Assembly (NCBI RefSeq): GCF_900115435.1
Contig: NZ_FOWK01000003.1
Span: 124,001-188,000, forward strand
DNA: 64,000 nucleotides
Direction of reading: 5' to 3'
Origin: Prevotella sp. tf2-5
Lineage (GTDB): Bacteria > Bacteroidota > Bacteroidia > Bacteroidales > Bacteroidaceae
Below are positions 5,366-24,206 of this stretch, piece after piece; positions within the stretch are counted from its first letter, which is position 1; each line of letters starts with the position of its first letter. The notes under the pieces are model-generated. The model was not told the origin of the DNA and made no database searches. It saw only the letters and a program-made list of their open reading frames with translations. The position numbers and the translations under genes are program-made.

Positions 5366-5515
5366 CAAAGGTATTTAAAATAATAAGGTGAAAATTTGGG
5401 AATGGCTGAAAAAGTGGACGATATGAACCACTTTAAAAACGTAAAGCGTTTATTTGCAGTGTTTTACGAAATTTGCGAGAATCAAAAAGAGTGGACTAAA
5501 TATAGAGGTGTAAAC
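5366..5515 (-). promoter_or_regulatory. susC promoter with shared PUL regulatory module
   Basis: Read on the minus strand, a TACCTTTG -7 element lies at 5366-5373, 75 bp before the susC ATG. No TTTG is present at the -33 position. That place is taken by a box containing TTTTCACCTTAT (plus-strand GGTG at 5387). A GTGGAC box follows at 5414-5419, a second GTGGAC at 5491-5496 exactly 77 bp away, and a distal box TATAGAGGTGTAAA with GGTG at 5507-5510. The same order and spacing occur upstream of the genes starting at 14533 and 24009. This implies a common regulator of the three transcripts; the regulator is not in the window. Confidence 0.7.
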
Positions 5516-5521
5516 TAAACA

Positions 5522-5556
5522 ATTATCCCGATAAACGGGTTGTTTATCGGGATAAT
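5522..5556 (-). terminator. Hairpin terminator after the 55-aa peptide gene
   Basis: Perfect 15-bp inverted repeat: ATTATCCCGATAAAC at 5522-5536 and its complement at 5542-5556, with a 5-nt loop. It lies 48 nt past the stop of the small peptide gene at 5605 and is followed on the minus strand by a weak T-rich stretch (TTGTTTAG). It also abuts the distal box of the susC promoter, so it separates the GH81-peptide unit from susC. A nearly identical hairpin at 24215-24248 occupies the same relative place. Confidence 0.7.
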
Positions 5557-5604
5557 AATCAGTCAACAACTGTCACTTCTCTATCAGAAGTCATCAAATG
5601 TACG

Positions 5605-5772
5605 TCAGCCGACTTCCTCACCATCGCCAAAGGAACCATCGACACCATCATAGTCGATGGTGTCAGTACCCAATAGCGGATTACCAGTACCACTCATCAG
5701 CAATAATGGTTGAACGGTATGAACTTCTATCAACTCCGTTGTGGGTGTAGTATATACTTTTCTTTTCATCAT
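5605..5772 (-). CDS. Small peptide (55 aa) of the MKKxYxxP family
   Basis: The frame runs from ATGATG (5767-5772) to TGA at 5605-5607. It begins MMKRKVYTTPTTELIEV, then has PLLLMSG, and ends in an acidic tail (DTIDYDGVDGSFGDGEEVG). Counted from the second Met, the proline and the LLxxS segment align without gaps, one residue shifted, with the peptides at 10758-10946 and 15486-15614. It lies 29 bp after the GH81 gene and 48 nt before a hairpin. I do not recognise a function. The conserved N-terminus followed by a variable tail resembles a leader plus core peptide, but there is no modification or export gene next to it. A small regulatory or secreted peptide is equally possible. Confidence 0.65.
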   Translation of the reverse strand: MMKRKVYTTPTTELIEVHTVQPLLLMSGTGNPLLGTDTIDYDGVDGSFGDGEEVG

Positions 5773-5801
5773 AGTGATTACTATATGAGATGTTTGAATT
5801 C

Positions 5802-8800
5802 TTATTTTACTACAACGGTCTTTCCACGATAGATGTAGATACCTTTCTGCTGTGGTCGGTTAGTACTCAGGCGGTGACCCTTCAGGTCGTAATAACAATT
5901 GTCTGTCCATGGTGAGGCGACCTTTACCTGTTCTATGGCGGTGACATCGTCGAACAACAGTCGTGCCCCTGTCGGAGCATCGGCAAGGTATGCCCGGAAG
6001 CTGCCGACGATAGCTCCCTCATTGTCCAGCCATGCCAGTTTGCCTGTATTCTTGAAAGCGGCATATCCCTCCGTGCCATTGACGGTAAAGCGTTTGAAAT
6101 TACCGATAAAGCGTACCCCGCCAACTGTCGTTGACAGTTCTCCTGTTCCGCGAGCCAGTTCCACGTTGCCTTTTGTGCCATTGATGGACAGCACTATGGC
6201 AGATGAAGTGGCATTATGCAGCAGGTAAGGCTTGTAAGCCTTGATACCCGTTGTCACCTTTGTGAAATTGATTGCCTCATCGGTTGCCTCATTCAATTCG
6301 TAGACATCCAATCCTGTAGGAACAGTGATGTCACGAGGCAGACAGCAGGAGGCATATTCTCCTGCCAAGATGGTGCGATTGTAGGTCAACGTGGTATTAC
6401 GTCCAAAGTTCATCGGCAGTACGGCATAGCCGTCCTCAAACTCTACCTTGAAGCCTGTTGCCTCCAATGGTAGTATCCACCCGCCAGCGTTATAGGCAAG
6501 GTTCTTATTGTTAGTCAGCTTCGCCTGCTGCGCCGATGCCGCATGGTCGTCGCCACCATCACCATTCAGCAGGATGATGACATTGGGGTTATTAGTTGTC
6601 ACTATCGTCATCGGTGTGGTGTTGCCCAGGGTGATGCCACTCAGGTCGATAGCCGTCACCGTCTTCGGTAGTGCGGCGATATCGCTCAGGAACTGTGCTA
6701 CATTAGCATCCGTCAGCCCCGTACCGAAGGAGGTTACCGTAGAGATACCCTTAGAGTCAGGATCACCTACAAACACCTTATCACCTGTCTCTGTATAGAA
6801 ATACACATTGGCAATCAGGGCAGCATTCGTACCAGCCTGATAATTGTTGAAGGAGAAGAACAGCCAGTTAGCCGTCGTGTTCGTAATAGGTAAGTCGACG
6901 CTATTCCACTGTCCTCCTTTCAATGCCTTGGCATACTCTTTGTTACCAGGAGCACCCTCGATATGGATACTGAAATCAGGAGCATCCGCTAAGGGGTAGA
7001 CATCGGCATGCAGCATATTAGCACCTTCCAGGTCGATATTACCCAAGGCACCGAATCCACATGTTCCCAACTGTTTCACAAAGATAGCACGGCAGGTCGG
7101 AGTGAGGTCGAACGAAGGACCTGTGCGCTTAGAGCCTCCGTTGTAGTCGAAGTTCATCGACGACTCCTCTTGTCCTACGAATATCACCACCTTGTCGCTG
7201 ACACTGGCAGGAGCATCCACGGCATCGTTGATAACCATCACCTCTGCCTCGCTCATTATTGAGCCAACTGTTGCCTTTACAGTATACGTACCAGCCGTTG
7301 TCGCTGTAATGGTCTTCGCCTCGGCGTCAATCGTCAGTCCGGCGCCAGTCTCGTAACTGGGTGTCATATCATAAGGAGCGCCAAACTGGTCCTTTCCCTC
7401 AATCGTGAATGTTGTCGGAATACCTTTCACAAGAATTCCAGGAACCTCGAAAGCCATCGATGTGAGTTTCAGGCTCTCCTCCACAGGTAAGGTCTTATTG
7501 GCAGTCATGCCCTCTACCGTTGCCTTCACCATGACATTACCATATTTCGATGGTGTGAAATTGCTACCACTGAACGTACCGTCCTCACTACTCCATACGG
7601 CAGAGACACTCTTGGTGTTCTTCGCATAGTCATAGCCCTGAATAGATAATGTCGTGGGCTTTCCTTGTTTCAGCACCTCATCGGCACTGATAATCTCCAC
7701 ACCCATCAGGTCATTGGCATCAGCGGAGACAGGTTTTCCATACACTTCCAACTCATAGAGCGAGGTGCCATACGAAGAACCACGTTTCACACCAATCAGA
7801 CGAATGTAACGTCCCACATGGTCATCCAAGGCGAGTTCCGTCCAGTCTTCCGCCTTTCCAGCACCCGTCTTACTGTAAGTGGCATCACCATTCTCCGTGT
7901 CACGTAGTTCAATGCGATACTCCGAGGCATAGCTTGCCTCCCATCGCACGCGAACCTTATATATATATGCATTTTCCCCGAGGTCTACTTGCAACCACTC
8001 ATCGTCTTGAAACACACTGCTCCAACGGGTGTCAAGTTTACCGTCAGTAGCATTTTCCTTTAGGGTTCCCGCATTCTCATGACTACTCTCCGTACAGGTC
8101 TTACCCAAGGCAAGGTTCTTCATCACCAGTCTTTCCCGCAGGTCTGGCTCTGTGTCATCTACAGGATACACATAATTATAGGCAGTAGAGGTGACACCCT
8201 CCACTTTCATCTGTCGGGCAGGCACCACAAGGTGAGTACCGTCACTATAGTTCACGGTAATCTCCGCATCAGTGGGATTATAGGCGATATGCGTCTTCAC
8301 CCCGCCTTTGTCATATACACGAGCCGTAGGATAGTCGGCTGTCACGTTCCACACGATATCCCCATAGGTACGGTGTGAATGGGTGACGAAGTAGGTGATA
8401 CCATTGGTCAAACTGGTCGTCATCGTACCCCAGCCTTTCGTCCAACCCTCGTCGAAGATAGCGGCGGCATCGTCAGGATCACTCCACTGGCGGTAGCTCA
8501 GTACCACATTACCCCAGTCAGAGTCACGCAGGTCAGCGTCACCGATACCACCTGTGCCATCCCAGCCTTTATGCTCCTTGATAGCCATCAGTCGCTCATA
8601 GTCCCATGCGGCAAACGCCTTGTCCTCGCTTAAGTAATCGAGGGCAGGAGAGATAGGCATCCACTGGATACCCTGCATAAAGACAGGATCGCCACCGAAC
8701 CATGTCCACCATCCGATACCATGACTGGTGAGGTTAGAGCTCCACGGTTGGATATAGTCCACCACACCATCCTTCTTATGTTTGAATTTCGTATAGTCGA

Positions 8801-10664
8801 TGTTATAGTCGGGATTGTTGGTCGTATGGAAGTCAGCGCCAACAGACTCCCCGTGACGGTCAAACCAGTATTCGGCAGTGGCGCGGCTCTCACAGATCCA
8901 GCCGAAGATACCGGCGTCACGTAACTCGTTGTCACCCAAGGCGACCCCCAGCAGGTACATACCACCCCATCCTTGCATCGACTCGGAGGTGGACTCCTGA
9001 CCATTACCTGCTCCGTCACCCATACCACCAGCATAGCAATGACCAGCCCATGGGTCCATCATACGCAGGAAACAAGCCCAGTCGTCACGTTTGTAGTTAT
9101 TATAGTCACGAGCCACCAGCTTGATCATCTCCCCATAGTGCTGTTTGAAGTCATCGTCCACCAGTGCCAGCATAGCGGCGGCAAGGGTATAGTACCCATA
9201 ATGGAAATGATGGTCGTTATAGGTATCACTGTCATAGCTGGTGTTATAGCCGATCAGTCCATGGAACCGCTGGTCGTAGGCAAAGAAGAAGTTATCCTCC
9301 CCAGGGGTATACGTCAACCAGTTGACGAGCGCCTCTTTCAGTCTGTCATGACATAGTTTGAAGAGTTCCTCCTCACCCATCTCACGGGCAAACGACATAT
9401 ACAGAGCCATCTGTGTCAGTCCCTTACCACCCCAGTAGGTGTCACCACCGAAGGTTCCCTTCTGGGCATACTCCTCCAGCATCTTCCTCATCTTGGCGAC
9501 ATCATAGGCATGGTCACCTGTTAGGTCGTTGGGCACCCCATACCAAGGCAGCATCCCCGAGAACTGATAGCTGATGCTCAGGTCATTACCTGCGGCAAGT
9601 TTCAGTTTACCACGTGGGGTGGCATAACTATTCCCTAAGAAAGAATGACTGTATGTCGCATAAGGACTACGCCAGTGGTGCGGGATGAATCCCTGCAACA
9701 CTTTATTAGTCTCCGAACCAGTACGCAGGTCTGTCGCTGTCACCTGCCAGCGGGTGGTCAGTGTACCGCTTGCCTGGACATAGTCCCACGACACCTTCGT
9801 GTCCGTCGGTTTGCTATAAGCATAGGTGCCGTAGGTCGTCAGGTCACTGGTCTGTTGTAACAGAGCCACCACCACAAACTGTTTGGCACCACCAAAGGTG
9901 ACGGTAGCCTTTCCACCGTCTATCGCCACCGTACTACCGTCAGGCAGGTAGATACCATAGAGGTCTTGTGTGGCGGCATTGCTGATGCGCACCACAAACT
10001 GCGTGTGACTGCCAGAGGTGAGTGCCGCACCTGTTCCGTCGATGATATCGACGGACACGGGACCTGTCAGTTTGTTGTCGGCACCATCATTATCCGTCTT
10101 CACAGCGGTAATGACAGGACTGATGTTCTCCATCTCTATCCAGGTGAAGGGTACACCGTGTGCAAGTGTCGTCAGCATCTGCTGGCTACCACTCTCCTCC
10201 GAGAAAGACACTGTCCAGTCGCTCCACTGCTCCGCCATCGGTGTGGTAGCATAGAAATCCTCACCGCCACTGATGGTTAGTCTCGACTGTGCCTTCATCT
10301 CCGTGCCGTTATCCACCCAGTATTTCGGATAATGGATGTCCACACCATATTTCATGCCCTGTACATACTGCGGATAAGACCACAGATGTCCTGTCACCTC
10401 CTTACCAGACCGTCCACGGTCAGCATTGATCAGGTCTGTCCACCAGTCGTTAGTGGGAATAGGCTGTCCTGCCTGCTCACGGATATACAACTGACGATAT
10501 TGCATATACTGACTCTGGTCACCACCATGCTCCGCAGTCCTCGACTTCGACAGGGGTGAGTAAGCCGCATAGCTGCCCTTTCCCACTGTTATGGACGATT
10601 GCGCATAAGTCGTAGAAGGGATGATGAGCAGTGTCGTTAAGATCGTTAATAAATAATTCCTCAT
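5802..10664 (-). CDS. GH81 endo-beta-1,3-glucanase, multimodular, secreted
   Basis: This 1620-aa secreted protein has a GH81 catalytic domain, which cleaves internal beta-1,3-glucan bonds by an inverting mechanism. A signal peptide covers residues 1-21. GH81 spans roughly 40-790: PTNDWWTDL near 70, the hallmark DTYNDHHFHYGYY near 480 with the catalytic Asp region, NGQESTSESMQGW near 555 with the two conserved Glu, and FMQGIQWMPISPA near 665. It is followed by an F5/8-type C (discoidin-like) domain at about 865-977 (ATDGKLDTRWSS...YIRLIG...LYELEVYG), two Ig-like segments at about 985-1145, a jelly-roll-like module at about 1155-1300, a ~150-aa beta module shared with the proteins at 11018 and 15635, and a C-terminal tail YDLKGHRL...KGIYIYRGKTVVVK resembling a T9SS signal. 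It sits only 93 bp after the peptide gene at 10758, so part of its transcription may be read-through. Confidence 0.93.
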   Translation of the reverse strand: MRNYLLTILTTLLIIPSTTYAQSSITVGKGSYAAYSPLSKSRTAEHGGDQSQYMQYRQLYIREQAGQPIPTNDWWTDLINADRGRSGKEVTGHLWSYPQYVQGMKYGVDIHYPKYWVDNGTEMKAQSRLTISGGEDFYATTPMAEQWSDWTVSFSEESGSQQMLTTLAHGVPFTWIEMENISPVITAVKTDNDGADNKLTGPVSVDIIDGTGAALTSGSHTQFVVRISNAATQDLYGIYLPDGSTVAIDGGKATVTFGGAKQFVVVALLQQTSDLTTYGTYAYSKPTDTKVSWDYVQASGTLTTRWQVTATDLRTGSETNKVLQGFIPHHWRSPYATYSHSFLGNSYATPRGKLKLAAGNDLSISYQFSGMLPWYGVPNDLTGDHAYDVAKMRKMLEEYAQKGTFGGDTYWGGKGLTQMALYMSFAREMGEEELFKLCHDRLKEALVNWLTYTPGEDNFFFAYDQRFHGLIGYNTSYDSDTYNDHHFHYGYYTLAAAMLALVDDDFKQHYGEMIKLVARDYNNYKRDDWACFLRMMDPWAGHCYAGGMGDGAGNGQESTSESMQGWGGMYLLGVALGDNELRDAGIFGWICESRATAEYWFDRHGESVGADFHTTNNPDYNIDYTKFKHKKDGVVDYIQPWSSNLTSHGIGWWTWFGGDPVFMQGIQWMPISPALDYLSEDKAFAAWDYERLMAIKEHKGWDGTGGIGDADLRDSDWGNVVLSYRQWSDPDDAAAIFDEGWTKGWGTMTTSLTNGITYFVTHSHRTYGDIVWNVTADYPTARVYDKGGVKTHIAYNPTDAEITVNYSDGTHLVVPARQMKVEGVTSTAYNYVYPVDDTEPDLRERLVMKNLALGKTCTESSHENAGTLKENATDGKLDTRWSSVFQDDEWLQVDLGENAYIYKVRVRWEASYASEYRIELRDTENGDATYSKTGAGKAEDWTELALDDHVGRYIRLIGVKRGSSYGTSLYELEVYGKPVSADANDLMGVEIISADEVLKQGKPTTLSIQGYDYAKNTKSVSAVWSSEDGTFSGSNFTPSKYGNVMVKATVEGMTANKTLPVEESLKLTSMAFEVPGILVKGIPTTFTIEGKDQFGAPYDMTPSYETGAGLTIDAEAKTITATTAGTYTVKATVGSIMSEAEVMVINDAVDAPASVSDKVVIFVGQEESSMNFDYNGGSKRTGPSFDLTPTCRAIFVKQLGTCGFGALGNIDLEGANMLHADVYPLADAPDFSIHIEGAPGNKEYAKALKGGQWNSVDLPITNTTANWLFFSFNNYQAGTNAALIANVYFYTETGDKVFVGDPDSKGISTVTSFGTGLTDANVAQFLSDIAALPKTVTAIDLSGITLGNTTPMTIVTTNNPNVIILLNGDGGDDHAASAQQAKLTNNKNLAYNAGGWILPLEATGFKVEFEDGYAVLPMNFGRNTTLTYNRTILAGEYASCCLPRDITVPTGLDVYELNEATDEAINFTKVTTGIKAYKPYLLHNATSSAIVLSINGTKGNVELARGTGELSTTVGGVRFIGNFKRFTVNGTEGYAAFKNTGKLAWLDNEGAIVGSFRAYLADAPTGARLLFDDVTAIEQVKVASPWTDNCYYDLKGHRLSTNRPQQKGIYIYRGKTVVVK

Positions 10665-10700
10665 TTAATCCTTTTGTTTCTTGTTAATATTAGTCTAAAA

Positions 10701-10732
10701 AGGCTGTGCCTGCCTTTAGCGCGACACAGCCT
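10701..10732 (-). terminator. Hairpin terminator or attenuator between the 62-aa peptide and GH81 genes
   Basis: AGGCTGTG at 10701-10708 pairs with CACAGCCT at 10725-10732. On the minus strand the stem is followed by TTTTTAGA, so it has the form of an intrinsic terminator for the peptide gene ending at 10758. Only 36 nt separate it from the GH81 start codon and no TAnnTTTG box is evident there. The hairpin may therefore be leaky and set the GH81 dose; this is inference. Confidence 0.65.
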
Positions 10733-10757
10733 CCAACTTTGTTATAATCTTTACATG

Positions 10758-10946: not shown

Positions 10947-11017
10947 AAATCTATCCTTATAATTTATTACAAAGTCCTCTTTCCTCCCCTGGACAGGGGA
11001 GGGAAGGAGGGGTCTTC

Positions 11018-14000
11018 TTACTTCAAAATAACCTTCTTGCCGTTCACGATGAAGATACCCTTGGTAGGATTCTTCACTTCCTGACCTTGCAGGTTGTAGA
11101 ACTTGCCGTTCATCAGCTCATCCATATTCTTGATGCCCTTGATGCCTGTAACATCACCGTCATCGAAGATTGCACGAGCGGAAGCACCAGAGAGACCGGT
11201 GAAGTAAACACGGAAGGCACCGATCTTAGCACCGTTGAACGGATGGAGATTACCATCCTTCAGGGCATACTGTGTACCGTCGGTGTCGATAGCGCGAGAA
11301 GTACCGAACTGTGTAACACCAGCAGTTCCGATAGTAGTACCGGCACCATTAGCTGTCAGGTTCAGGTCGATCTTCGCAGTCTCTGTTGTGATGACAACAT
11401 CAGCACCAGTCGTGTTGTGGAGGATCACAGGATCATTAGCACCAACAGCCTGACTTGCCTGCTTGGTGAAGGTCACCTCGTCGGCAGCAGCGTCTGTTGC
11501 TTTATAAACATCCACACCATCAGGTACAGTCACAGAAGCGGGAGCGTTGAAGCTTGCCCAGGCACCAGCGGCAACAGTACGGGTATAGGTAATTCCATCC
11601 TGCTGTGCGTCGATCACGAAGTCGTAAGCAGGCTGTGAGTCATTGTCATCAACGAGGTTGATCACAACACCATCAGCGGCACGACGGTATATACCATCGA
11701 AGACAACGAGGTTGGAAGCAGTGACTTTCGCACCGTTTGCATCGGGAGTACGTCCTGTACCACCTACCACAACTACTGCATTCTTGTTGGCTGGGGTAAT
11801 CGTGATAGCCTCTGTGATGGTAGCGCCAGAGAAGTCGATGGTAGCGACAGCACCAGCGTCAGTAACAATCGTTGCTACGTCGGTGGCGGTCACAGGACCA
11901 GTTACTGTTGCGACATCACCTGTCACGATGACATTCACAGTCTCTTCACCTTCCTCTACCCAAGTGATATCGTCAGCACCGATATTGCCAAAGTTCACCT
12001 CACCTGGTATCATCACATACAATGGAGTATAGATTGTAGGTTTGGTAGTTGAGGTGGCAAGAACGGTTATCATCTTCTTGTCATCGCTGACCGTACAATT
12101 ACTTCCGTTCATGGCTTCGTTTCCACCACTCAGACCCCAATATGAGCCACCCAGACCATTCATGTCGTCGTCAGAGGTGATGACCAGTTTCCAGTTGTTC
12201 TCTGAGCGATCAAGATAGTGGATACCTTGTACCAGGATGGTATGTCCGTCAGCAGTCAGTTCCAGTCCGACAGGAGCTGCGACAACTGTCAGGTCAATGG
12301 TGTTCTTGATAGTAGCATCACTCTTCAGGGAAGCGGTGATCCTCACATTACCCTCAGCGACACCAGTCACCTTACCATCAGCGTCAACAGTAGCTACAGC
12401 AGGAGTACCGCTTGTGAAGTCTAACTCGCTGGCAGCAACGACAGCCTCTGTCTGATCCTTCACCGTCAGTTGCAAGGTCTTGCCTACAGCAACCTCTTTC
12501 TTTGCAGCCTCAACAGTGATAGCGGTAACCACTACAGGAGCACTTGCCTCTTTCCAGAAGTAGATGTTGTCCACATAAACGATTTCTTTGCCGGTACCCT
12601 TGTCAAGCTTCAGTTGGAATGCCTTGGAGTTGGCAAAGTCAAGACCGAACTCAGAGAGCTTGATATCCTTGCTGTTCCACTCACCTGGGGTCAGCTCACC
12701 GACGCTGGTTGGCTTCTCAGTAGGAGTACCACCTGTCATAATAGGAGTGATACCGACAGTCATATCCTGCATGGGCAGTACGTCAATATGAACATACTCC
12801 ATATCCTTCAGGTCGAGTTGTGTGGCAAGCTCAAAACCAAGATAGTTGAAGTTGCTCAGCTTTAGTATGTTGTCTTCGCCAACTGTTTCTGCCTCAACGG
12901 TGGTTGACTGTCCCCAGTTACCATAAGTATAGGTGGAGGCAGCTGTATAAGCATTGCTGTAGAGACTGATGACATCGTCAGCGTCCTGAGAAGGAGCAGG
13001 AGCGGCAGTCAGAGCCAAAGTTGTGGCGTTGACATTCTGTGCGTCAGATGCATTCTCGTTATCATCCTTTGCTATAATAGAAAAGGTATAAGCCTTGTTG
13101 AAGTCAAGTCCACCAACGGTGTAGGTGATCTCCACACCATTGTCACCCTTGGTCGTATAGTCTTTTGTACCGTCATTGATGACATAAGTCACCTTTTCAG
13201 ATATGTTATCAGTAGCCTTCAAGGTGAAGGTGACACTGCCGATACCAGCACTCTTCACGGCTGCTGTATTCAGCACGGGAGCCTCATCGTCGTCAACGGC
13301 TGGTTTTGCGAAATAGAAGTGGTCGAGGTAGAACTCAGACTCACCGACGAGTTCGATCAATGCATAGTTGGGCTGGTTGCTGGTGTTGTCAAACACAAGA
13401 TAATTCCACTGACCAGGAACCAGTCCTGTCTTAGAGATAGCTTTGCCGTAGGCGTTATCACCAAAGAACTTAGCCTCTGTGGCTGTGAAAGGATAAACAG
13501 CGACATGAATCTGGGTGTAGTCGCTGGTAACACCTGCACCACCAGCGGTACGGCTGTTGAAACCAGTACCATTCACATGAACCACCTTATGAGCATCGGC
13601 AATCTCGACTTCCTCAATAGAGTTGTAGAGAGGATTGGGAGCACCACCGCCAACACCCCATGTGGGATTGCTCTCGTTGATACCCTTGCCGTACTTCGCA
13701 CTATAGACAGCAATGACATTTGCCGCGAGGTCTGTAGGCTCTGTAGGATTAGTTGTAGGAGCCGAAACATCGATGGCTTGAATGATCTTATCAACAGATA
13801 CAGCATTATAAGTAGCGGTAATCTTCACGTCTCCGACGGCGGTAGCAGTCAGTGTGGTACCTACGAGTGTGGCGTTTGTGGCAGTATAGGTGACACCCTC
13901 TGTCAGCGTAACTCCAAGCTGATCTTTCGCGGTAAAGGTCATTGCTGTTGCCTCACCGACTTTCACCATTGTTGGGGTGACATCGAGGGAGGTCAGTACA

Positions 14001-14533
14001 GAAGCCTCTTTCTCTAAAGCGACAAAAGTGCGGATCTTCACACCCCATGCATAGTTCGTAGCCTCTGTAGGTACAAAGACGATGTAACGACCACTGTTGG
14101 TAACTGCCACAGCAGCGTCTTTCTTTGACTCCTGTGCATTGGTAAAGGTGGCAATGAGTGTCTCACCAGTCAGTGAGCCGTCAGCAGCAGGTGCTGTATT
14201 GGTCACATAGATGTTAGCACCACAGTCGGCACCTTCCCATGTACTCTGGATGGCACCGATAGACTTTGCCTCACCTAAGTCGATGTAGAAACCCTGAATG
14301 CCTAACGTCTTGTTGTACTCCAGGTTGTCACCGTTCTCGGGGAAGAGGAAGACATTGGAAGTGTTGTCGTCAACGGTGATTTTCTGAAGATTCTCCGTTG
14401 TCACTGAACCTTCTGGCAGGAAAGCCTTCAGACCTCCTAATGGATAGACTGTCTTACCTGACGTCAAGTTCGTCGCTGCAAACGTCATTAGCGACGTCAG
14501 CAGGAAACTTAAAAGTAATAAAGTTTTTCTCAT
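11018..14533 (-). CDS. Secreted multimodular protein, no catalytic domain seen (1171 aa)
   Basis: Signal peptide 1-20 (TSLMTFAA). Residues about 20-155 are a discoidin/jelly-roll-like domain. Residues about 160-245 are a bacterial Ig-like (BIG2-type) repeat (SLDVTPTMVKVGEATAM). Two jelly-roll-like modules follow, at about 265-405 (VIAVYSAKYG...YLDHFYFAK) and 520-665 (VISLYSNAYT...VYVDNIYFWKE), separated by a Fn3-like domain, then another BIG2 repeat (VAVGKTLQLTVKD), a module shared with the 862-aa protein (ILVQGIHYLDRSENNWKLVI), and the common ~150-aa C-terminal beta module. The tail YNLQGQEVKNPTKGIF...GKKVILK resembles a T9SS sorting signal. No glycosidase signature was found. I infer a surface or secreted glucan-binding protein. 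It is the first gene after a shared-module promoter. Confidence 0.8.
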   Translation of the reverse strand: MRKTLLLLSFLLTSLMTFAATNLTSGKTVYPLGGLKAFLPEGSVTTENLQKITVDDNTSNVFLFPENGDNLEYNKTLGIQGFYIDLGEAKSIGAIQSTWEGADCGANIYVTNTAPAADGSLTGETLIATFTNAQESKKDAAVAVTNSGRYIVFVPTEATNYAWGVKIRTFVALEKEASVLTSLDVTPTMVKVGEATAMTFTAKDQLGVTLTEGVTYTATNATLVGTTLTATAVGDVKITATYNAVSVDKIIQAIDVSAPTTNPTEPTDLAANVIAVYSAKYGKGINESNPTWGVGGGAPNPLYNSIEEVEIADAHKVVHVNGTGFNSRTAGGAGVTSDYTQIHVAVYPFTATEAKFFGDNAYGKAISKTGLVPGQWNYLVFDNTSNQPNYALIELVGESEFYLDHFYFAKPAVDDDEAPVLNTAAVKSAGIGSVTFTLKATDNISEKVTYVINDGTKDYTTKGDNGVEITYTVGGLDFNKAYTFSIIAKDDNENASDAQNVNATTLALTAAPAPSQDADDVISLYSNAYTAASTYTYGNWGQSTTVEAETVGEDNILKLSNFNYLGFELATQLDLKDMEYVHIDVLPMQDMTVGITPIMTGGTPTEKPTSVGELTPGEWNSKDIKLSEFGLDFANSKAFQLKLDKGTGKEIVYVDNIYFWKEASAPVVVTAITVEAAKKEVAVGKTLQLTVKDQTEAVVAASELDFTSGTPAVATVDADGKVTGVAEGNVRITASLKSDATIKNTIDLTVVAAPVGLELTADGHTILVQGIHYLDRSENNWKLVITSDDDMNGLGGSYWGLSGGNEAMNGSNCTVSDDKKMITVLATSTTKPTIYTPLYVMIPGEVNFGNIGADDITWVEEGEETVNVIVTGDVATVTGPVTATDVATIVTDAGAVATIDFSGATITEAITITPANKNAVVVVGGTGRTPDANGAKVTASNLVVFDGIYRRAADGVVINLVDDNDSQPAYDFVIDAQQDGITYTRTVAAGAWASFNAPASVTVPDGVDVYKATDAAADEVTFTKQASQAVGANDPVILHNTTGADVVITTETAKIDLNLTANGAGTTIGTAGVTQFGTSRAIDTDGTQYALKDGNLHPFNGAKIGAFRVYFTGLSGASARAIFDDGDVTGIKGIKNMDELMNGKFYNLQGQEVKNPTKGIFIVNGKKVILK

Positions 14534-14617: not shown

Positions 14618-14765
14618 CAAAGGTATATAAATATATAAGGTGAAAAATTGACGAGACTAAAGAAGTGGATAAAGTTGGTTACACTTGATATGTAACCAAT
14701 TCGATATGAGACGTTTACGCTCGTCGTCGATTTGGAAAAGAGTGGATGGAATATAGAGGTGTAAA
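14618..14765 (-). promoter_or_regulatory. Promoter of the 1171-aa protein with shared PUL regulatory module
   Basis: The -7 box TACCTTTG lies at 14618-14625 (minus strand). The proximal box has GGTG at 14639-14642, GTGGAT boxes lie at 14665 and 14742 (exactly 77 bp apart), and the distal box has GGTG at 14758-14761 within ATATAGAGGTGTAAAC. Distances from the -7 box (21, 47, 124, 140) differ by at most 1-2 bp from the susC and 24009 promoters. Between the GTGGAT boxes lies an inverted repeat TTGGTTAC(9 nt)GTAACCAA at 14675-14699. Confidence 0.7.
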
Positions 14766-15444: not shown

Positions 15445-15485
15445 CCACAACAAAAGTATGAATGTTCAATTAAGTCGACGACAAA

Positions 15486-15614: not shown

Positions 15615-15634
15615 ATTTTTCTAGCAATTACAAG

Positions 15635-18223: not shown

Positions 18224-18263
18224 AAGTCTTTTGTTTTTAGTTTATTATAATTTTAGATTGTTC

Positions 18264-19820
18264 TCACTTAATCACGACTTTGTTGCCATTCTTGCCTTGC
18301 AAGCGTCCTTCGGCCGAGCGCACGATGTAGATGCCCTTCGTCGGATGAGTGACACGACGACCGTTGAGGTCATAATATACTCCATTGGCTCTTACATCTT
18401 CCTTCTTACTTCTTACATCATAGATACCAGTGGTGGCATCGAAACGCAGTTGGTTGATAAGGATGGACGACGTTCCCATATTATATAATAATAAGGTGTG
18501 CTGTCCAGCCGTCAGTGTCACTTTCGTCGTCACATCCTGCCATACACCATTGGTGGAGGGTAGGGTGGTGTCAAGTCGTTTGTTGGCTGACCCGAAGGCA
18601 CCGTCGTAGATGCGGAAGTCATTGGCGGCAGTCGAACTCATGTGCAGGGTCAGGGTGTACTCTCCATCAGAGGGGAGGTTGATCTGATAGGCTGTCCAGG
18701 AACCGGAACGCCATTCTATCTGCAAGGGGATATCGCTGGATGTCTCTGTGTTGGGACGGACACGAGGTACCTCATTGTCCATGCTGGCATTGATAAAGTC
18801 TTTGGCAAGGATGCTCTCGCCAGTCATATAGTATTTCTCCTTGTCGAAGGAGGACATATAGACGTAAACCTTACCCAGATCAGACAAGTCACTGCTTGAC
18901 GTGTTGGTCTTGAAGATGCTCATATAGGGGAAGGATGCGGCACCTCCAGTGGGATTCGCCATGAACCACGCATAACCCTCCACCATATCGCTGAGTTCCA
19001 GTTTCAGCAGTTTCTGCACCATCTGGTCGATCTGGAAGTCAAGGGTGATACCTGCCGAATAGGGATAGGAGTTCGTCTCCCAAGAGCAGAACTCCGTCAG
19101 GAACATCTTCGGATAATGTCCATGTGCCGTCTTATAGTTGTCCATGAACGCCACGAGGTTCGGATATTTCGCACGGTTGGCAGTGGTCATGAGGTCATTC
19201 TCCTCCTTGTCGGTATAGAAATACTCATTGACCAGCCAGTCGACAGCCGAGTAATAGTTCATATAGGAGTGGAAGCACAGGTAGTCCACCTTCGCATCAG
19301 GTACCAGACGGAAGAACTCGTCATACCAGGCGAAGGGCTCCCATATCTTTCCACCCACATAATCACCTGTGAAGTTAAGGGCGGGGGCTACGATCTGTAG
19401 TCCGAAGTCGGCGGCAACCTGCTCCACCTTCGACCAGGCGTTGGCTGCCTGCTGGGGAGTCATTGCCGATCCGCCAGCACTATATTGTAGATTAGGTTCG
19501 TTAAAGGCAAGTAAGTATTTCACCTCTCCCTGGTGTGCTGTCAGATACTGACGCAGACTGGTGTCATTAAAGTCACCATTCCAGCACATGGGGATGAAGG
19601 TCATGGTAGTGGGAGTGAAGACAGTAGAGCTTCCTGTGGGAGCGACACCCCAGTTGTAGACCCATGCGACACCTGGCGCCATCTTGGCGATAGGAGCACC
19701 GGTGAACTGCTGGTTCTTCTCATCCCAGCAAATGCCTCGCTTGGCACTGCGTTGCTGTGCCAAGACGGGGACATTTACAAACACTAATACTACTAACAAA
19801 AACCTAAAAACGTTTCTCAT
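18264..19820 (-). CDS. GH128-type beta-1,3-glucanase with CBM6-like domain, secreted
   Basis: This 518-aa protein has a signal peptide (1-21). The catalytic domain at about 25-300 is of the Asl1-like/GH128 type: RGICWDEKN, WVYNWG, MCWNGDFN, LLAFNEPNLQ near 103-112 with the probable acid/base Glu, LCFHSYMN, and MFLTEFCSWE near 240-249 with the probable nucleophile Glu. Residues about 340-460 form a CBM6-like beta-sandwich (DIPLQIEWRSGSWTAYQINL...LINQLRFD). The tail YDLNGRRVTHPTKGIYIV carries an unusual insertion (RSAEGRLQGKNGN) before KVVIK. Its ATG overlaps the stop of the GH16 gene as TAATG, indicating translational coupling. It would cleave beta-1,3-glucan to short oligosaccharides together with GH16 and GH81. 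Confidence 0.9.
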   Translation of the reverse strand: MRNVFRFLLVVLVFVNVPVLAQQRSAKRGICWDEKNQQFTGAPIAKMAPGVAWVYNWGVAPTGSSTVFTPTTMTFIPMCWNGDFNDTSLRQYLTAHQGEVKYLLAFNEPNLQYSAGGSAMTPQQAANAWSKVEQVAADFGLQIVAPALNFTGDYVGGKIWEPFAWYDEFFRLVPDAKVDYLCFHSYMNYYSAVDWLVNEYFYTDKEENDLMTTANRAKYPNLVAFMDNYKTAHGHYPKMFLTEFCSWETNSYPYSAGITLDFQIDQMVQKLLKLELSDMVEGYAWFMANPTGGAASFPYMSIFKTNTSSSDLSDLGKVYVYMSSFDKEKYYMTGESILAKDFINASMDNEVPRVRPNTETSSDIPLQIEWRSGSWTAYQINLPSDGEYTLTLHMSSTAANDFRIYDGAFGSANKRLDTTLPSTNGVWQDVTTKVTLTAGQHTLLLYNMGTSSILINQLRFDATTGIYDVRSKKEDVRANGVYYDLNGRRVTHPTKGIYIVRSAEGRLQGKNGNKVVIK

Positions 19821-22800
19821 TACCTAACAACTACCTTCTTACCATTTATAATATATAATCCTCGGGGGAGTGTTACCAGATGAGCTTTCACATCGGAGAG
19901 ACGGGCTACCTGACGGCCCTGCAGGTCGTAGACAGCATCAGCAAAAGGAGCGGCTACCTCGACAGTCTCCTGACGGACGGTCTGGATACCATCGGTATCG
20001 TCCTTCTTCTCACGCCAGAAGAACACGTTATCCATCTGGAGCTCGTCACCAGTATGGGCACCACTCATAAACCATACCAGATTACCCTTCCAAGCAGCCT
20101 GTCCACCATTATTCTGAGGATAGAGGCTGGGGAATGACTTCTTGATATAGCTATAAGGGATGTCGAAGGAGTACCACTCACCATCACGCTTGAAGTCTCC
20201 TACAACGGGAGTCTTATCGTCAAACACTGTAGAGCCGATGGTAAAGCGTGACTCAGCAAAACCTACCAGGTGGTTGCAGTTGTCAGTGCCACGCATAGCG
20301 AAATGCAGATACCAGTCGCCATCCTCCAAAATTCGGAGGTCAGCACCGTCTTCAGCAAGGAAACCGCCACCAGACCAGCCCTGGGTACCTACCACCCAGT
20401 CGATCCAGCCCTGTCCCTCGATACCGAACGAGTTGACAACGGTGCCGCTCTTGCTGCCATTGGTATAGGTGTTGCCGTTCCAGTTGTTAAGGGTATAGTA
20501 GCCGGCAAGGATATTCTCATCCTTTGTGCCACCCTCTGTCTGCATCTGGATCGTTGCCTCAGAGACATTGAAGTTGATGAACTCCTTGTTCTCCATACTG
20601 AAATAGCTCTTGCCATCGGCATCAAGACTCTTGGTGGTGAACTCACCCAGTTCATTGACCTCAGGTTTCGTACCGTCTTTCTTGTTCCAGAAGAAGATAT
20701 TATCGAAGGAGAACGAGCTGCCTGTATATTGGGTATCCATGGTGTAGAAGCAGAGCAGGTTCTCACCCACTTTCACTTTACCGTTACCATTCTTACCCCA
20801 CAGCTTACCATATTTCTTCAGCTCAGCGACAGGGATGTCAAAGGCATACCACTCACCATCGCGGTTGAAATCAGCGAAAATAGGATACTTGCTATAAGCA
20901 CCGAAGGTCAGGACAGCATCGCTGTTCTCCGCACCGAAGCGTACTCGGACGGGGATGTGACCTACTGCTGCGTCAGAGCGCAGGGCGATATGCAGATAGT
21001 AGGAGTCGTCAATCATCGAGAGGTCTTTCTCCGTAGCGGAGGCAATACCCATACCGTTCCAGTCTAGTTTTGTGGTAGATGTCCATGTAGAGATACCACC
21101 GGTATAGACACCTGATGAGTTGGCGACACCATCTTCATGACCACCGACCATCGTGCCCTCCCAGGTGTAATAGTTGTTACTTTGTGTATAGTCACGATCC
21201 TGCTTCACAAGGTCGGTCTCCTGATAGGTTCCGTCACTGGTGACCCCTTTCCATACGTCCTCAGAGAGCTGGAGGGGAATTATCTCACCCACCTGTGTCA
21301 AGTCGAAAGCCCATGTGCCGTCTTCTTTGACACTCTTATAGCCGTATTTGCCGAGGTCTGACTTGGTATCCGCATAGCTGGGAATCTCCTTGGTCTTGCT
21401 CTTGTAGAAGAAGATATTGTCAAAGGACAACTCCGCGTCCGTCTTACCACCACTGATAAAGGCAATGATATTGTCGTCGAAGGCAGCGGCATCACCCTTC
21501 ATCAAGGGATTGGCAAACTGCTTGAGCACCTTGACGGGGATATCGAAGTAATACCATTTGCCGTCACGCTTGAAGTCGCCGACGCTCGCAAACTTGCCGT
21601 CGCTGTTGCCGACGATGAAGTTAGCATTGCTGACAGTAATCTGATGAGAGGTATGTAACTCTTGGTCGTCGCCCTTCATAGCGAAGTGCAACCAATAGGT
21701 GTCGTCAATCTGAGAGAGGTCCTCGTTCTTGATATTAAAACCGAGTCCTGACCATCCCGCACTTGCCACCGTGAACATGTTGTAACCCTCAGCCCATCCG
21801 AAGGAGTTGGTCTTTCCGTCACGATTCACTGGCACATAGGTGTTCTCCCAGATATAGAGGTTACGATTGGTGTTGTTGACATTGCAGTCTTTCACCGTAG
21901 CACCAGCAGAATACAGGTGTCCTGTGACACCCTCACTAGTGGAGATCAGTACGGCATCAGACACGTCGTTGAAGTCGAAAGTGGTCTCCCCATTCTCGTC
22001 AAGAGCCTCTGTGGCGAAACCGCTCAGTTCTGTGACATCGTCGTCCTGACTGGGTTTGTCAGGCTCCTCGGGAATATTGGTCTGCTTGTTACCACTCTCA
22101 TCGGTATAGAGATACTGTGCGTCAGCGTCATCCTCTTTCTGATAGACACGCACCCAGTCCACATACATCTTAGCCTCATCACCGGCATTGGGTAATGCCG
22201 TGATATCTGAGGGGTTGTAGATATTGGTAAACGTACCACCTACGGCAAGGTTGAAGAGGAAATAGAATGGCTTCTGGAAGTAATGACCTGGTGTCATCGC
22301 ATCGTCAGAGGGCGTAATATTCAGTGTGTAATAACGGGCACGGTTCTTGGGACCATTCTTGTAACCTTCCAGGTCATAATACATATAAAGGTATTGACCA
22401 TCCCACTCAATGGTGAAAATATGGTAGTCACCCTCTACGGCACCAATAGCCTCAAACTTTTCCTGAGAGAACTCCTGGCTGTTCTGCTGGTGATGCTCGT
22501 TGCTGGCATCAGGACCATAGTGCAGGGTACCAGAGAAATAGCGGTCCTGCCAACCGGCATATTTACCTGTGATGGCGTTAAAGTGTCCCATTTCGACAAT
22601 ATCTATCTCACCACAACGGGGCCATCCGTACTTGTTGATGTCGTTACCCATCATCCAATAGGCGGGCCACAGACCGTTAGCGGTCTTTGGGAACTTGATC
22701 TTAGCCTGCATGATACCATGCTTGAAGGCTGTCTTCTGGTTGGAGTTGATACGTCCGGAGGTAAAGCTCTTACCTTGATATTCCTCACGCTTGGCGGTCA

Positions 22801-23041
22801 GCACCAGGTTACCGTCAGCCACACTGACGTTCTCCTTGCGATAGAACTGCAGCTCCTGGTTACCACCACCAGTGCCTGACACCTCAATGTTCCAAGCCTT
22901 CTCGTCAAGGCTGGTACCATTGAACTCGTCGCTCCACACAAGCTTATAGCCCTCGGGAGCACCTTCTATTGCCTGGGCAGAAGCGACAGTCGGAGAGACT
23001 GTCGCTAATACTACACCTAATAATATATTAGATAGTTTCAT
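19820..23041 (-). CDS. GH16 laminarinase with three repeated accessory modules
   Basis: This 1073-aa protein has a signal peptide (1-23). The GH16 domain spans about 25-305: YKLVWSDEFNG, NGLWPAYWMMG, and the catalytic motif GEIDIVEMGH near 146-155 with both Glu and the Asp. GH16 members with this motif are retaining endo-beta-1,3(4)-glucanases. Three ~200-aa beta modules follow, starting near 335, 555 and 800. Each has the series YxWExT, SFGxxGxNxFT or an equivalent, WSGxGF, DxxYxLHxAMxG, FxxVGDFxRDGxWYxFDIP and FDNIFFxxxK. The protein ends YDLQGRQV...PRGLYIINGKKVVVR, a T9SS-like tail. The repeats are related to the stand-alone 318-aa protein encoded 11 bp upstream. The modules probably bind glucan chains; this is inferred. 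Confidence 0.94.
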   Translation of the reverse strand: MKLSNILLGVVLATVSPTVASAQAIEGAPEGYKLVWSDEFNGTSLDEKAWNIEVSGTGGGNQELQFYRKENVSVADGNLVLTAKREEYQGKSFTSGRINSNQKTAFKHGIMQAKIKFPKTANGLWPAYWMMGNDINKYGWPRCGEIDIVEMGHFNAITGKYAGWQDRYFSGTLHYGPDASNEHHQQNSQEFSQEKFEAIGAVEGDYHIFTIEWDGQYLYMYYDLEGYKNGPKNRARYYTLNITPSDDAMTPGHYFQKPFYFLFNLAVGGTFTNIYNPSDITALPNAGDEAKMYVDWVRVYQKEDDADAQYLYTDESGNKQTNIPEEPDKPSQDDDVTELSGFATEALDENGETTFDFNDVSDAVLISTSEGVTGHLYSAGATVKDCNVNNTNRNLYIWENTYVPVNRDGKTNSFGWAEGYNMFTVASAGWSGLGFNIKNEDLSQIDDTYWLHFAMKGDDQELHTSHQITVSNANFIVGNSDGKFASVGDFKRDGKWYYFDIPVKVLKQFANPLMKGDAAAFDDNIIAFISGGKTDAELSFDNIFFYKSKTKEIPSYADTKSDLGKYGYKSVKEDGTWAFDLTQVGEIIPLQLSEDVWKGVTSDGTYQETDLVKQDRDYTQSNNYYTWEGTMVGGHEDGVANSSGVYTGGISTWTSTTKLDWNGMGIASATEKDLSMIDDSYYLHIALRSDAAVGHIPVRVRFGAENSDAVLTFGAYSKYPIFADFNRDGEWYAFDIPVAELKKYGKLWGKNGNGKVKVGENLLCFYTMDTQYTGSSFSFDNIFFWNKKDGTKPEVNELGEFTTKSLDADGKSYFSMENKEFINFNVSEATIQMQTEGGTKDENILAGYYTLNNWNGNTYTNGSKSGTVVNSFGIEGQGWIDWVVGTQGWSGGGFLAEDGADLRILEDGDWYLHFAMRGTDNCNHLVGFAESRFTIGSTVFDDKTPVVGDFKRDGEWYSFDIPYSYIKKSFPSLYPQNNGGQAAWKGNLVWFMSGAHTGDELQMDNVFFWREKKDDTDGIQTVRQETVEVAAPFADAVYDLQGRQVARLSDVKAHLVTLPRGLYIINGKKVVVR

Positions 23042-23052
23042 AAAGCACGTAT

Positions 23053-24009
23053 TTATTTCATAATAACCTTTTTCACACCATTGGCGGTCTTCACGAGGTT
23101 CACACCGGGACGGTAGTCTTTGACACGACGACCTGTCAGGTCATAGATCTCTTTTACGTCGTTGGCTGCCGCACCTGTTGCGACAGTCTGCTGAATACCT
23201 GTCGAGTTCTTTTTATAAAGGTATACACCGTCCAGTGCCAAAGCAGAGCCTTTCTGGGTAATGGTGATCTTCTTCATACCGGTATCTGGGTCAACAGCTC
23301 CAGCAGTGAATGCGGAAACGGTACCCTCATTGAACCCTACGTTAAAGATAATAGTTCCTGTAGGCTTGCTGAAGTCACACTCAAAACCATAGTCTCCGTC
23401 CGGGTCAAGAAGGTCCTTGATGGGGATATCCAGATAATACCACTTGTTGATAGTGGGGGCATTGCCGACACCAATTAAATCACCTGCAGCCTGACCAACT
23501 TCCTTGTTGACAACCAGTTTGATCTCACCACCCGTAGGACCGAAGGTGAACTTGAAGTTATTGGTGGCTGTCTCCGCACCAATGTTCATGAAACCGATAT
23601 GCAGGATATGGTCCTCTGTGATACAAGAAAGGTTGTATGGCTGGCTCTTGGCACCGAAGTGACCTGCACCCCAGGCATAAAGAGGAGTCATGTCCAGTTT
23701 GGCGTCACCACCCCAGGAGTTGGTATGTGTATCCTCTATATCATATAATGTGAAGAGTGTTGGATCCCAGTCAGCAGTCCAGTAATAGAACTGGTTCTTC
23801 GTTCTTGTGGGATCGAGGTTCTGGTTAGACAGGATATTGCTGCCCATTGCCGTCACCTGTGCATCAGGGGCATAGATGACCACATAGTCTGTGCCCTTCG
23901 AAAAGTCAAAGCCTCCTGCCGGAGCCTCTGTAATGTACTGCGCACTTGCTGAAACGGTGGTCATCATCATGGCACCGATCATCATAGAAAACAAGTAATT
24001 CTTCTTCAT
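23053..24009 (-). CDS. Secreted single-module protein related to the GH16 repeats (318 aa)
   Basis: Signal peptide 1-23 (TTVSASAQ). Residues about 30-265 contain one module like those in the GH16 protein (FYYWTADW, GHFGAKSQPYNLS, DHILHIGFMN, KWYYLDIPIKDLL, ALDGVYLYKKN). The tail EIYDLTGRRVKDYRPGVNLV...GVKKVIMK resembles a T9SS signal. It is the first gene of the GH16-GH128 operon, 48 bp downstream of a shared-module promoter. No enzyme motif is visible. I infer a secreted or surface-attached glucan-binding protein. Confidence 0.75.
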   Translation of the reverse strand: MKKNYLFSMMIGAMMMTTVSASAQYITEAPAGGFDFSKGTDYVVIYAPDAQVTAMGSNILSNQNLDPTRTKNQFYYWTADWDPTLFTLYDIEDTHTNSWGGDAKLDMTPLYAWGAGHFGAKSQPYNLSCITEDHILHIGFMNIGAETATNNFKFTFGPTGGEIKLVVNKEVGQAAGDLIGVGNAPTINKWYYLDIPIKDLLDPDGDYGFECDFSKPTGTIIFNVGFNEGTVSAFTAGAVDPDTGMKKITITQKGSALALDGVYLYKKNSTGIQQTVATGAAANDVKEIYDLTGRRVKDYRPGVNLVKTANGVKKVIMK

Positions 24010-24056
24010 AATCTTTTCAAGTTGTAGTTATTAATGTTTGTTCTATTTTTCGGTGG

Positions 24057-24206
24057 CAAAGGTATATAATAATATAAGGTGAAAAAAGGTCATATAACTC
24101 AAAAGGTGGACGAATGGAAAGGAAGTCGATACGTAAGTGTTTGTTATCCAACAGGATAACGAATGGGAGTGTCTTAAGAAAAGTGGATGTTATATAGAGG
24201 TGTAAA
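24057..24206 (-). promoter_or_regulatory. Promoter of the GH16-GH128 operon with shared PUL regulatory module
   Basis: The -7 box TACCTTTG lies at 24057-24064 (minus strand). The proximal box has GGTG at 24078-24081, GTGGAY boxes lie at 24106 and 24183 (77 bp apart), and the distal box TATATAGAGGTGTAAA has GGTG at 24199-24202. Distances from the -7 box are 21, 49, 126 and 142. Between the GTGGAY boxes lies GTTATCC(4 nt)GGATAAC at 24143-24160. A 65-codon open frame over this region is regarded as chance. Confidence 0.7.

Follow-up and report, generated by a model that had tools for sequence, protein, structure and literature searches.

What controls the genes for beta-1,3-glucan breakdown in Prevotella sp. 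tf2-5, and why should several of their promoters carry the same elements at almost the same distances? In the window, by which we mean the whole stretch of 64,000 nucleotides analysed, three promoters (P1 to P3) share such a module. Our analysis indicates that this shared 140-base module very probably acts as the switch through which a sugar-sensing regulator of the SusR family, encoded nearby, exerts its control. It also predicts a feature not described before, an IHF-type site midway between the two repeats of the module, in spacer previously called non-conserved.

Promoter module and genes in the window

The promoters precede the following genes:

2067..5291, minus strand: SusC-like transporter, first gene after P1 (PF00593, PF07715, PF13715)
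505-2097: SusD-like protein, after the SusC-like gene (PF07980)
11018..14533, minus strand: 1171-aa protein with a Big_2 domain, first gene after P2 (PF02368)
5802-10664: GH81 protein, after the 1171-aa gene (PF17652)
18264..24009, minus strand: three genes after P3 (PF03935, PF11790)

The three genes after P3 encode a 318-aa protein with no Pfam match, a SKN1/KRE6-domain protein (PF03935), which we take to be of the GH16 type, and a glycosyl hydrolase catalytic-core protein (PF11790), presumably of the GH128 type.

A recheck of the three promoters found all five elements of the preliminary description on the minus strand where it had placed them, at offsets from the -7 box of 21/48/125/141 (P1), 21/47/124/140 (P2), and 21/49/126/142 (P3), with the two GTGGAY/TCCAC boxes 77 bp apart in all three. 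With the central palindrome discussed below, the features are:

5366..5373, minus strand: P1 (susC), -7 box TACCTTTG
5387..5394, minus strand: P1, TTTTCACC box at the -33 position, a local variant found in only 4/41 modules
5409..5419, minus strand: P1, proximal putative SusR half-site (R3)
5442..5466, minus strand: P1, central IHF-type palindrome (midpoint 5454), 81 bp upstream of the -7 box
5486..5496, minus strand: P1, distal putative SusR half-site (R2)
5501..5514, minus strand: P1, distal accessory box TTTACACCTCTATA
14618..14625, minus strand: P2 (1171-aa protein, then GH81 gene), -7 box TACCTTTG
14639..14646, minus strand: P2, TTTTCACC box at the -33 position
14660..14670, minus strand: P2, proximal putative SusR half-site (R3)
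14693..14717, minus strand: P2, central IHF-type palindrome (midpoint 14705), 80 bp upstream of the -7 box
14737..14747, minus strand: P2, distal putative SusR half-site (R2)
14752..14765, minus strand: P2, distal accessory box
24057..24064, minus strand: P3 (GH16-GH128 operon), -7 box TACCTTTG
24078..24085, minus strand: P3, TTTTCACC box at the -33 position
24101..24111, minus strand: P3, proximal putative SusR half-site (R3)
24134..24158, minus strand: P3, central IHF-type palindrome (midpoint 24146), 82 bp upstream of the -7 box
24178..24188, minus strand: P3, distal putative SusR half-site (R2)
24193..24206, minus strand: P3, distal accessory box

The pattern TCCAC-N72-TCCAC occurs three times in the window against 0.19 expected, a count reached by none of 100 shuffles, and the combination TTTTCACCTTAT...ATACCTTTGC occurs three times against 0.00 expected. 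The GGTG box (TTTTCACC), which had been listed as one of the shared elements, is present at -33 in the three window promoters but does not belong to the conserved operator. The four modules that carry it are those of the three window promoters and that of a single relative (L033, G035); in many relatives a T-tract takes its place. We rejected it as a core element, as it is absent from 37/41 modules and from a fourth module of the same genome. The distal box TTTACACCTCTATA taken alone was also rejected as a genome-wide element: with two mismatches allowed it gave 23 matches in this genome versus 32 for the reversed control, so that matches beyond the three exact ones are noise.

Spacing and spread of the module

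Comparison with related loci supports the earlier proposal that the spacing itself is selected. A total of 61 distal candidates yielded 48 past the joint filter, 45 with no more than two distal mismatches, and 44 once loci fetched by the 77-bp pattern were left out. The repeats are spaced exactly 77 bp apart in 39 of these 44 and 76-78 bp apart in all 44 (40/45 at 77 bp when all loci are counted). Column statistics used 41 modules, retained from 43 at spacing 77 by an 80% spacer-identity rule; four of the 41 stem from the 77-bp pattern search. A search across 150 genomes found 22 places in 18 genomes versus 5 for the reversed control, one of the 22 (G084, L024) being without a TCCAC box.

A profile built from 39 of the 41 modules (L106 and L117 left out) found four strong modules in the window's own genome (E <= 5.7e-16, the next candidate at 0.126), all of them in the beta-1,3-glucan locus. 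The regulon, first proposed to comprise three operons, includes at least four promoters. Occurrence of the module at many unrelated genes was looked for in this genome and not found; of 1498 first-look candidates the profile was scored on 150, and its 39 training sequences included the four own sites, so weaker own-genome sites may have escaped.

A neighbouring SusR-family gene

The preliminary description saw no regulator gene within the window; the likely regulator is a SusR-family gene just outside it. This gene (L046:4766-6433, equal to C9:108766-110433) matches NF058541 at 491 bits, against a cut-off of 480, and lies 13.6 kb to the left of the window inside the same beta-1,3-glucan locus, which also encodes a GH149 1,3-beta-glucan phosphorylase and GH81, two GH16-type, GH30, GH3, and GH5 proteins. 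A SusR homologue is present in 25/27 genomes with the module versus 58/123 genomes without it, and among the 150 genomes at least 25 of 33 pattern matches share a contig with a SusR homologue, nine of them at a distance of no more than 500 bp. Published predictions of SusR motifs place the centres of two direct repeats at a distance of 67 or 77 bp (Ravcheev et al. 2013, PMC3878776). The 77-bp repeats found here have this geometry, and a regulator on two distant sites, as first suggested, is still the best reading.

In a structure prediction for a SusR relative (L133), from an alignment covering 23/80 SusR loci, the N-terminal part was all-helical and confident and was accompanied by a long helix, while the C-terminal DNA-binding part scored below pLDDT 60. 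A PDB sequence search returned no significant match.

A conserved palindrome between the repeats

The spacer had been described as diverged, and across the 41 modules it is less than 80% identical; its centre, however, holds a conserved palindrome. The central dyad, at +57, scores 2.64, a value reached in 0 of 1000 column permutations, and the central columns read TAAnnnnCTGAttatcAGnnnnnTA. Compared with the E. coli IHF consensus, given as WATCARNNNNTTR (PMC7962754), the palindrome has at most one mismatch in 36/41 modules, and in 33/37 when loci fetched by the 77-bp pattern are set aside. At 128 other offsets the match rate averages 0.15%, with a maximum of 4.9%. Exact matches occur in only 9/41 modules, and 5/41 have two or more mismatches on both strands. 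The 77-bp repeats of L180 are accompanied by no IHF match, and 8/50 module promoters are missing an IHF-type site at 80-82. Exact CTGATTATCAG cores number five in the fetched DNA, and a comparison of their flanks was dropped since five sites are too few. The predicted central site lends support to the DNA bending or looping that had been suggested for these promoters.

Position of the site across SusR clades and genera

In other SusR clades and genera, the IHF-type site is found 80-81 bp before the -7 box where the repeats are 77 bp apart, or 70-71 bp before it where they are 67 bp apart; the two positions are one helical turn apart. The half-sites differ among the clades that share the palindrome (TCCACTTTT, ACTACTTTT, CATTTATATTTT, and GTWATACAAA). 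Among 16 promoters hand-chosen from 68, in some of which the palindrome was seen by eye before the consensus was named, 12 have the site at 80-81 or 70-71 and four (L216, L217, L220, and L231) lack it at the expected distance. A fresh set of 93 promoters, drawn from 40 SusR loci in other genera, gave sites at distances of 70 (9), 71 (6), 81 (6), and 80 (4) bp, against a mean of 0.66 per position; 67/93 have no site at either distance, as would be expected if most of these promoters are not SusR targets.

The class of the repeat agrees with the class of the IHF-type site in 19/19 promoters with one clear class each (67/70: 11, 77/81: 8, p = 1.3e-5). In the set of 27 promoters that have a 9-of-10 repeat, the 67 type includes three without a site at 69-71 (two of those have it at 72), one promoter of the 77 type has both distances, and four have other best spacings. 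As a control, long-ORF (susC-like) promoters of HTCS loci have the IHF-type site in 0/16 cases versus 13/22 in SusR loci, or 9/18 when the SusR loci are restricted to other genera (p = 0.001). The arm-length table holds 24/140 promoters, those in which both repeats are accompanied by an IHF-type site at 69-72 or 79-82. One of these, L222 (561 aa), comes from a divergent promoter read in the opposite direction and is an outlier.

Proposed mechanism and alternatives

We consider it probable that a membrane-anchored glycan sensor-activator of the SusR family uses the module as its operator, with an HU/IHF-family protein bending the centre and one SusR assembly holding the repeats antiparallel. 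Two SusR DNA-binding domains would sit on the direct TCCACTTTT repeats, the proximal domain beside RNA polymerase, some 40 bp upstream of the -7 box, and the other 77 bp beyond it. A nucleoid protein of the HU/IHF family on the palindromic site midway between them would bend the DNA back, bringing the repeats side by side and antiparallel where a single SusR assembly could hold both. A fixed helical phase would let the spacing shift only by whole turns (67 or 77 bp within the family). The inducing signal would be a beta-1,3-glucan oligosaccharide. At the level of sequence, this mechanism draws on the repeats, their spacing and conservation, the SusR gene, the four modules, the match to the IHF consensus, and the quantised position across SusR clades. 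Whether SusR-family promoters in general are bend-assisted switches, in which an HU/IHF-family fold at a fixed centre lets repeats 67 or 77 bp apart be clamped antiparallel by a single membrane-anchored SusR assembly beside RNA polymerase while the arms evolve by whole helical turns, is in our judgment evenly balanced.

A SusR operator consisting of two repeats only, with the palindrome serving either as a third contact for SusR or as the target of a non-bending regulator, is the strongest alternative, though an unlikely one. The window's own palindromes are weak, with one mismatch on the better strand and 2-3 on the other, and such a palindrome could be contacted by a DNA-binding domain. The genome has four HU/IHF-superfamily genes (PF00216), none of which is an IHF subunit by the curated cut-off, their best IHF-model scores falling below it; this fits the two-repeat operator, and it is why we name the binder only at the level of the HU/IHF family. 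Against a third SusR contact, the palindrome is common to SusR clades whose repeats differ, and the motif is frequent at other places in the genus (302 strand matches in 17 genomes versus 23 for the reversed control, near-palindromes counting on both strands), so a general DNA-bending protein fits better than SusR. Cur/Crp was rejected as the binder of the central palindrome, since TAAnnnnCTGAttatcAGnnnnnTA is unlike the published wwwTATGTTnTAnAACATAwww.

Control by an HTCS or an ECF sigma factor is very improbable, even though the three characterised Bacteroides beta-1,3-glucan loci have HTCS regulators (PMC7157763). HTCS motifs are described as direct repeats averaging 21 bp apart (PMC3878776) rather than 77 bp, all 11 Y_Y_Y matches in the genome lie on contigs other than C9 (HTCSs without Y_Y_Y would escape this count), and the geometry is absent from HTCS-locus promoters; on these three grounds HTCS control was rejected. 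The -7 box of the module promoters is the ordinary TAnnTTTG; an ECF sigma promoter would be expected to have non-standard boxes, with an ECF/anti-sigma pair close by. Equally improbable is a recent promoter duplication with equal spacing by shared descent only: the three promoters do lie within one locus, with similar terminator-like sequence upstream of P1 and P3, yet spacing and central positions are kept across the 41 diverged spacers, and other SusR clades show the same geometry with half-sites of another sequence.

Comparison with known systems

SusR is the founding regulator of the starch utilisation system, and its mechanism was called undefined in 2019 (PMC6874557). A conserved bend-type site whose position is quantised would account for the odd repeat spacing of 67/77 bp, and its helical-turn placement offers a testable idea for how the SusR family activates fibre-digesting genes. 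If true, it would give precise base-pair predictions and make a chromosome-structure protein part of how fibre digestion is controlled. SusR regulons might then be recognised from sequence by a simple rule, namely the repeat spacing combined with an IHF-type centre lying 70 or 81 bp upstream of the -7 box.

The module resembles the SusR-like operators of Bacteroides (PMC3878776) in its repeat geometry, its place upstream of susC-like and hydrolase genes, and its linked SusR-family gene, a likeness drawn on spacing, placement, and gene linkage. Unlike the spacer of those operators, described as long and non-conserved, the spacer here has a conserved IHF-type palindrome in a constant position. 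Among beta-1,3-glucan loci, the Figure 1 legend of PMC7157763, on loci from six species including Prevotella loescheii, names a SusR-like sensor-regulator as one of the gene types for the set as a whole; the SusR of Hoylesella (Prevotella) loescheii (L207) is 50% identical, and its gene lies downstream of two that look like susC and susD. The loci characterised in that paper differ from the present one in being of the HTCS type, and its passages on them describe no SusR operator. Sites of Bacteroides Cur (BT4338) are likewise palindromes upstream of carbohydrate genes (PMC6989115), with a consensus unlike the central element here. Like IHF-assisted activator promoters such as those of RpoN, which have a bend site between the upstream activator site and the promoter (PMC7962754), the module would combine an activator with a bend. 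Unlike IHF-assisted RpoN promoters, it would place the putative bend site between the half-sites of the same membrane-bound regulator, in a member of the Bacteroidota and at an ordinary -7 promoter.

Architecture of the module in the window

The preliminary description placed five elements at set distances in the promoters of susC (P1), the 1171-aa protein (P2) and the GH16-GH128 operon (P3), and all five, with their distances, are exact on the minus strand in each promoter. Read in the coding direction, the module runs from an accessory box TTTACACCTCTATA through (R)TCCACT to a second repeat 77 bp further on, followed by TTTTCACC and TACCTTTG. In the window, TCCAC-N72-TCCAC is seen three times where 0.19 would be expected (none of 100 shuffles reaches three); the proximal block TTTTCACCTTAT...ATACCTTTGC likewise has three occurrences, against 0.00 expected. 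Upstream of the first repeat, TGT and ACACCTCTATA boxes are near-invariant in this module's clade, are absent at the second repeat and were not seen among the listed promoters of other clades in other genera; they may give the distal subunit an additional point of contact.

Terminator-like inverted repeats of the ATCCCGATAAAC...GTTTATCGGGAT type lie at about 5520-5560 and 24210-24245 of the window, the first ending right before the distal box of P1 and the second right before that of P3; in a relative (locus L033) a similar repeat likewise ends before the distal box. In several relatives (L028, L035, L038, L039, L203), GTCCAC has its inverted copy GTGGAC after it, with a T-run, directly past the first repeat; this small hairpin-like arrangement was not seen in the window sites. 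A subset of relatives (loci L177, L183, L195 and L196) shares an extra stretch resembling CGTCnnGAGACGTAT about 26 bp past the second repeat, before the -7 box.

A SusR gene in the beta-1,3-glucan locus

Direct repeats with centres 67 or 77 bp apart are the predicted sites of SusR-like regulators according to Ravcheev et al. 2013 (PMC3878776). The analysis also covered the 20 kb left of the window. The features concerned are:

C9:108766-110433, SusR gene, left of the window (start C9:124001)
Between the SusR gene and the window, sugar transporter, GH30, GH149, GH3, GH5 and GH16 proteins, plus two others whose family is less clear or which have none
Within the window, SusC/SusD, GH81, second GH16-type and GH128-type proteins
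C9:107350-107507 (L046:3351-3508, in the fetched DNA), fourth module, left of the window, preceding the gene of a 488-aa protein whose DUF4114 match falls below cut-off
G000:C11:195598-197205 (contig C11 of the same genome), second full SusR, 31% identical to the C9 SusR, divergent from a neighbouring enzyme

The 555-aa C9 protein scores 491 bits against the model 'SusR family glycan utilization regulator' (NF058541, cut-off 480) and also matches PF19904; the intervening GH149 protein (1,3-beta-glucan phosphorylase) scores 1364 bits. We read the SusR gene, the interval and the window genes as one beta-1,3-glucan locus, the GH16-type and GH128-type names in the window being those that we take their Pfam domains to denote. 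None of the 11 own-genome matches to an HTCS-type sensor (Y_Y_Y) lies on contig C9. The sole NCBIfam match of the enzyme beside the C11 SusR is a Bacteroides retaining alpha-galactosidase model, below cut-off; we infer that the C11 regulator is an alpha-glucan SusR beside a GH97-type enzyme.

Two repeats 77 bp apart (up to 3 mismatches) were found in this genome at the three window sites and once on contig C1, with no match for the reversed control. A profile built from 39 modules gave four matches at E <= 5.7e-16, all in the beta-1,3-glucan locus, the next being at E = 0.126; the training set included these four sites and 150 of 1498 first-look candidates were scored, so weaker own-genome sites could be missed. 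The -33 region of the fourth module lacks the TTTTCACC box.

Conservation of the spacing and association with SusR

Of 150 genomes of the genus, 18 carry the distal composite (up to 2 mismatches), at 22 places in all, compared with 5 places for the reversed control; one of the 22 lacks a TCCAC box. When sites were picked by the distal element alone and the second repeat was left free at 50-114 bp, the best-match spacing in 45 modules was 77 in 40, 76 in 3 and 78 in 2; excluding loci fetched by the 77-bp pattern (44 modules), these counts were 39, 3 and 2, with no ties. The 77-bp pattern itself (up to 2 mismatches) is found at 33 places in 27 of the 150 genomes, with one match for its reversed control. 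For at least 25 of these 33 places a SusR homologue is on the same contig, no more than 20 kb away in 23 cases and no more than 500 bp away in 9. The remaining 8 are on contigs without a SusR homologue among the matches listed, two of them shorter than 14 kb (G103:C14 and G013:C24). By genome, a SusR homologue is among the matches listed for 25 of 27 genomes with the module versus 58 of 123 others (p = 8e-6); G134 and G142 carry the module and have no SusR match among those listed.

A central IHF-type palindrome

The earlier view that the intervening sequence is diverged needs qualifying: counted by column across 41 modules whose spacers are less than 80% identical, the spacer keeps TAA, CT, A, AG and TA positions. 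These conserved columns have dyad symmetry at +57 (score 2.64; best of 1000 column permutations, 1.57), and the midpoint of the two TCCAC boxes is 56.5. Each half of the palindrome reads as WATCARNNNNTTR, the E. coli IHF consensus given in PMC7962754. When no more than one mismatch is allowed and a match on either strand is accepted, this consensus is found in 36 of 41 modules (exactly in 9), and in 33 of 37 without the four modules from the 77-bp pattern; at 128 other offsets the match rate has a mean of 0.15% and a maximum of 4.9%. In each of the four own-genome sites there is a match with one mismatch, and its centre is 80-82 bp upstream of the -7 box. Since the IHF consensus was named only after the columns had been seen, it was tested on other loci.

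Across 17 whole genomes, the central motif TAANNNNCTGATTATCAGNNNNNTA gave 302 strand hits versus 23 for the reversed control (more than tenfold), near-palindromic sites counting twice, once on each strand. Four examples of this motif (from L233-L262) were checked, and three of them (L241, L244, L258) have a tRNA-Pro gene no more than about 30 bases away; the motif also stands in part in hairpin-like settings.

Placement of the site in other SusR clades and genera

In the loci collected earlier, 42 of 50 module promoters have the site at 80-82 bp, and non-module promoters have it at 69-71 or 80-82 bp in 15 of 47 cases at SusR-paralogue loci and 0 of 139 elsewhere. Twenty loci around SusR homologues about 30% identical supplied 16 hand-chosen promoters with other half-sites, in some of which the palindrome, though not its distance, had already been seen by eye. 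In seven (L218, L219, L222, L224, L225, L228, L229) the IHF centre is 80-81 bp upstream of the -7 box, and it is 70-71 bp upstream in five (L215, L221, L223, L226 and, at 70 bp, the C11 SusR promoter L232); four (L216, L217, L220, L231) fail the distance test. These promoters gave 37 matches against 17 from shuffles, and some background therefore remains.

Other genera of the family supplied 40 previously unseen SusR loci with 93 promoters, in which the distances show peaks at 70 (9), 71 (6), 81 (6) and 80 (4) against a mean of 0.66 per position. When repeats with 9 of 10 identical bases were sought independently of the IHF site, 27 of 140 promoters had one, with spacings clustered at 67 and 77. 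The 67-type repeats pair with a centre at 70 (11) and 77-type repeats with one at 81 (8), never crossed (p = 1.3e-5). As exceptions, one 77-type promoter has both distances, three of the 67-type have none at 69-71 (two at 72), and four of the 27 have other best spacings. Two SusR loci, L310 and L334, each hold a 67/70 and a 77/80 promoter.

Mean distal and proximal arms are 36.8 and 30.1 bp in the 67-type (14 rows) and 36.0 and 40.9 bp in the 77-type (10 rows, one outlier), with the proximal repeat 40.4 and 39.8 bp from the -7 box, respectively, in rows selected for a site at 69-72 or 79-82, a selection that fixes part of the result. What the comparison adds is that neither the distal arm nor the distance between proximal repeat and -7 box changes, which puts the helical turn between the centre and the proximal repeat.

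As a control, 20 HTCS loci (47 promoters) were examined; HTCS motifs average 21 bp according to PMC3878776. A match at 69-71 or 80-82 occurs in 4 of 47 HTCS promoters versus 26 of 93 at the SusR loci of other genera (p = 0.009). With ORFs of at least 850 aa as a stand-in for susC, these figures are 0 of 16 versus 9 of 18 (p = 0.001), and 13 of 22 at SusR loci when the paralogue loci are included.

A possible mechanism

The proximal repeat is centred about 40 bp before the -7 box, a common position for activators that contact RNA polymerase. If the DNA were straight, 77 bp would be too far for one protein to bridge easily. Bending it sharply at the centre would place the two arms side by side, and the direct repeats, one on each arm of this U-turn, would then run antiparallel, as a two-fold symmetric protein would require. 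In the predicted structure of a close SusR relative, the N-terminal part is all-helical and leads into a long helix, which, as we read it, could cross the membrane and continue as a coiled coil; the DNA-binding part is not confidently predicted. The genome has four genes of the HU/IHF family, and for three of them the highest scores come from IHF models, none reaching its cut-off. Two HU/IHF-family genes stand in tandem at G000:C5:107503-108065, the second extending into a longer C-terminal part; judged by sequence, the preceding gene reads as rimO and the end of the second as LysM-like.

Comparison with known systems

A figure legend on beta-1,3-glucan loci in PMC7157763 includes a SusR-like regulator in its list of gene types, and the repeat geometry and its link to SusR are already published in PMC3878776. 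Our search, whose scope took in few subscription papers, found no paper mentioning both SusR and IHF, and within the same scope no title or start of an abstract suggests that SusR promoters contain a bend site. Thus, the operator type is known, while the central bend-type site and its quantised place are apparently new.
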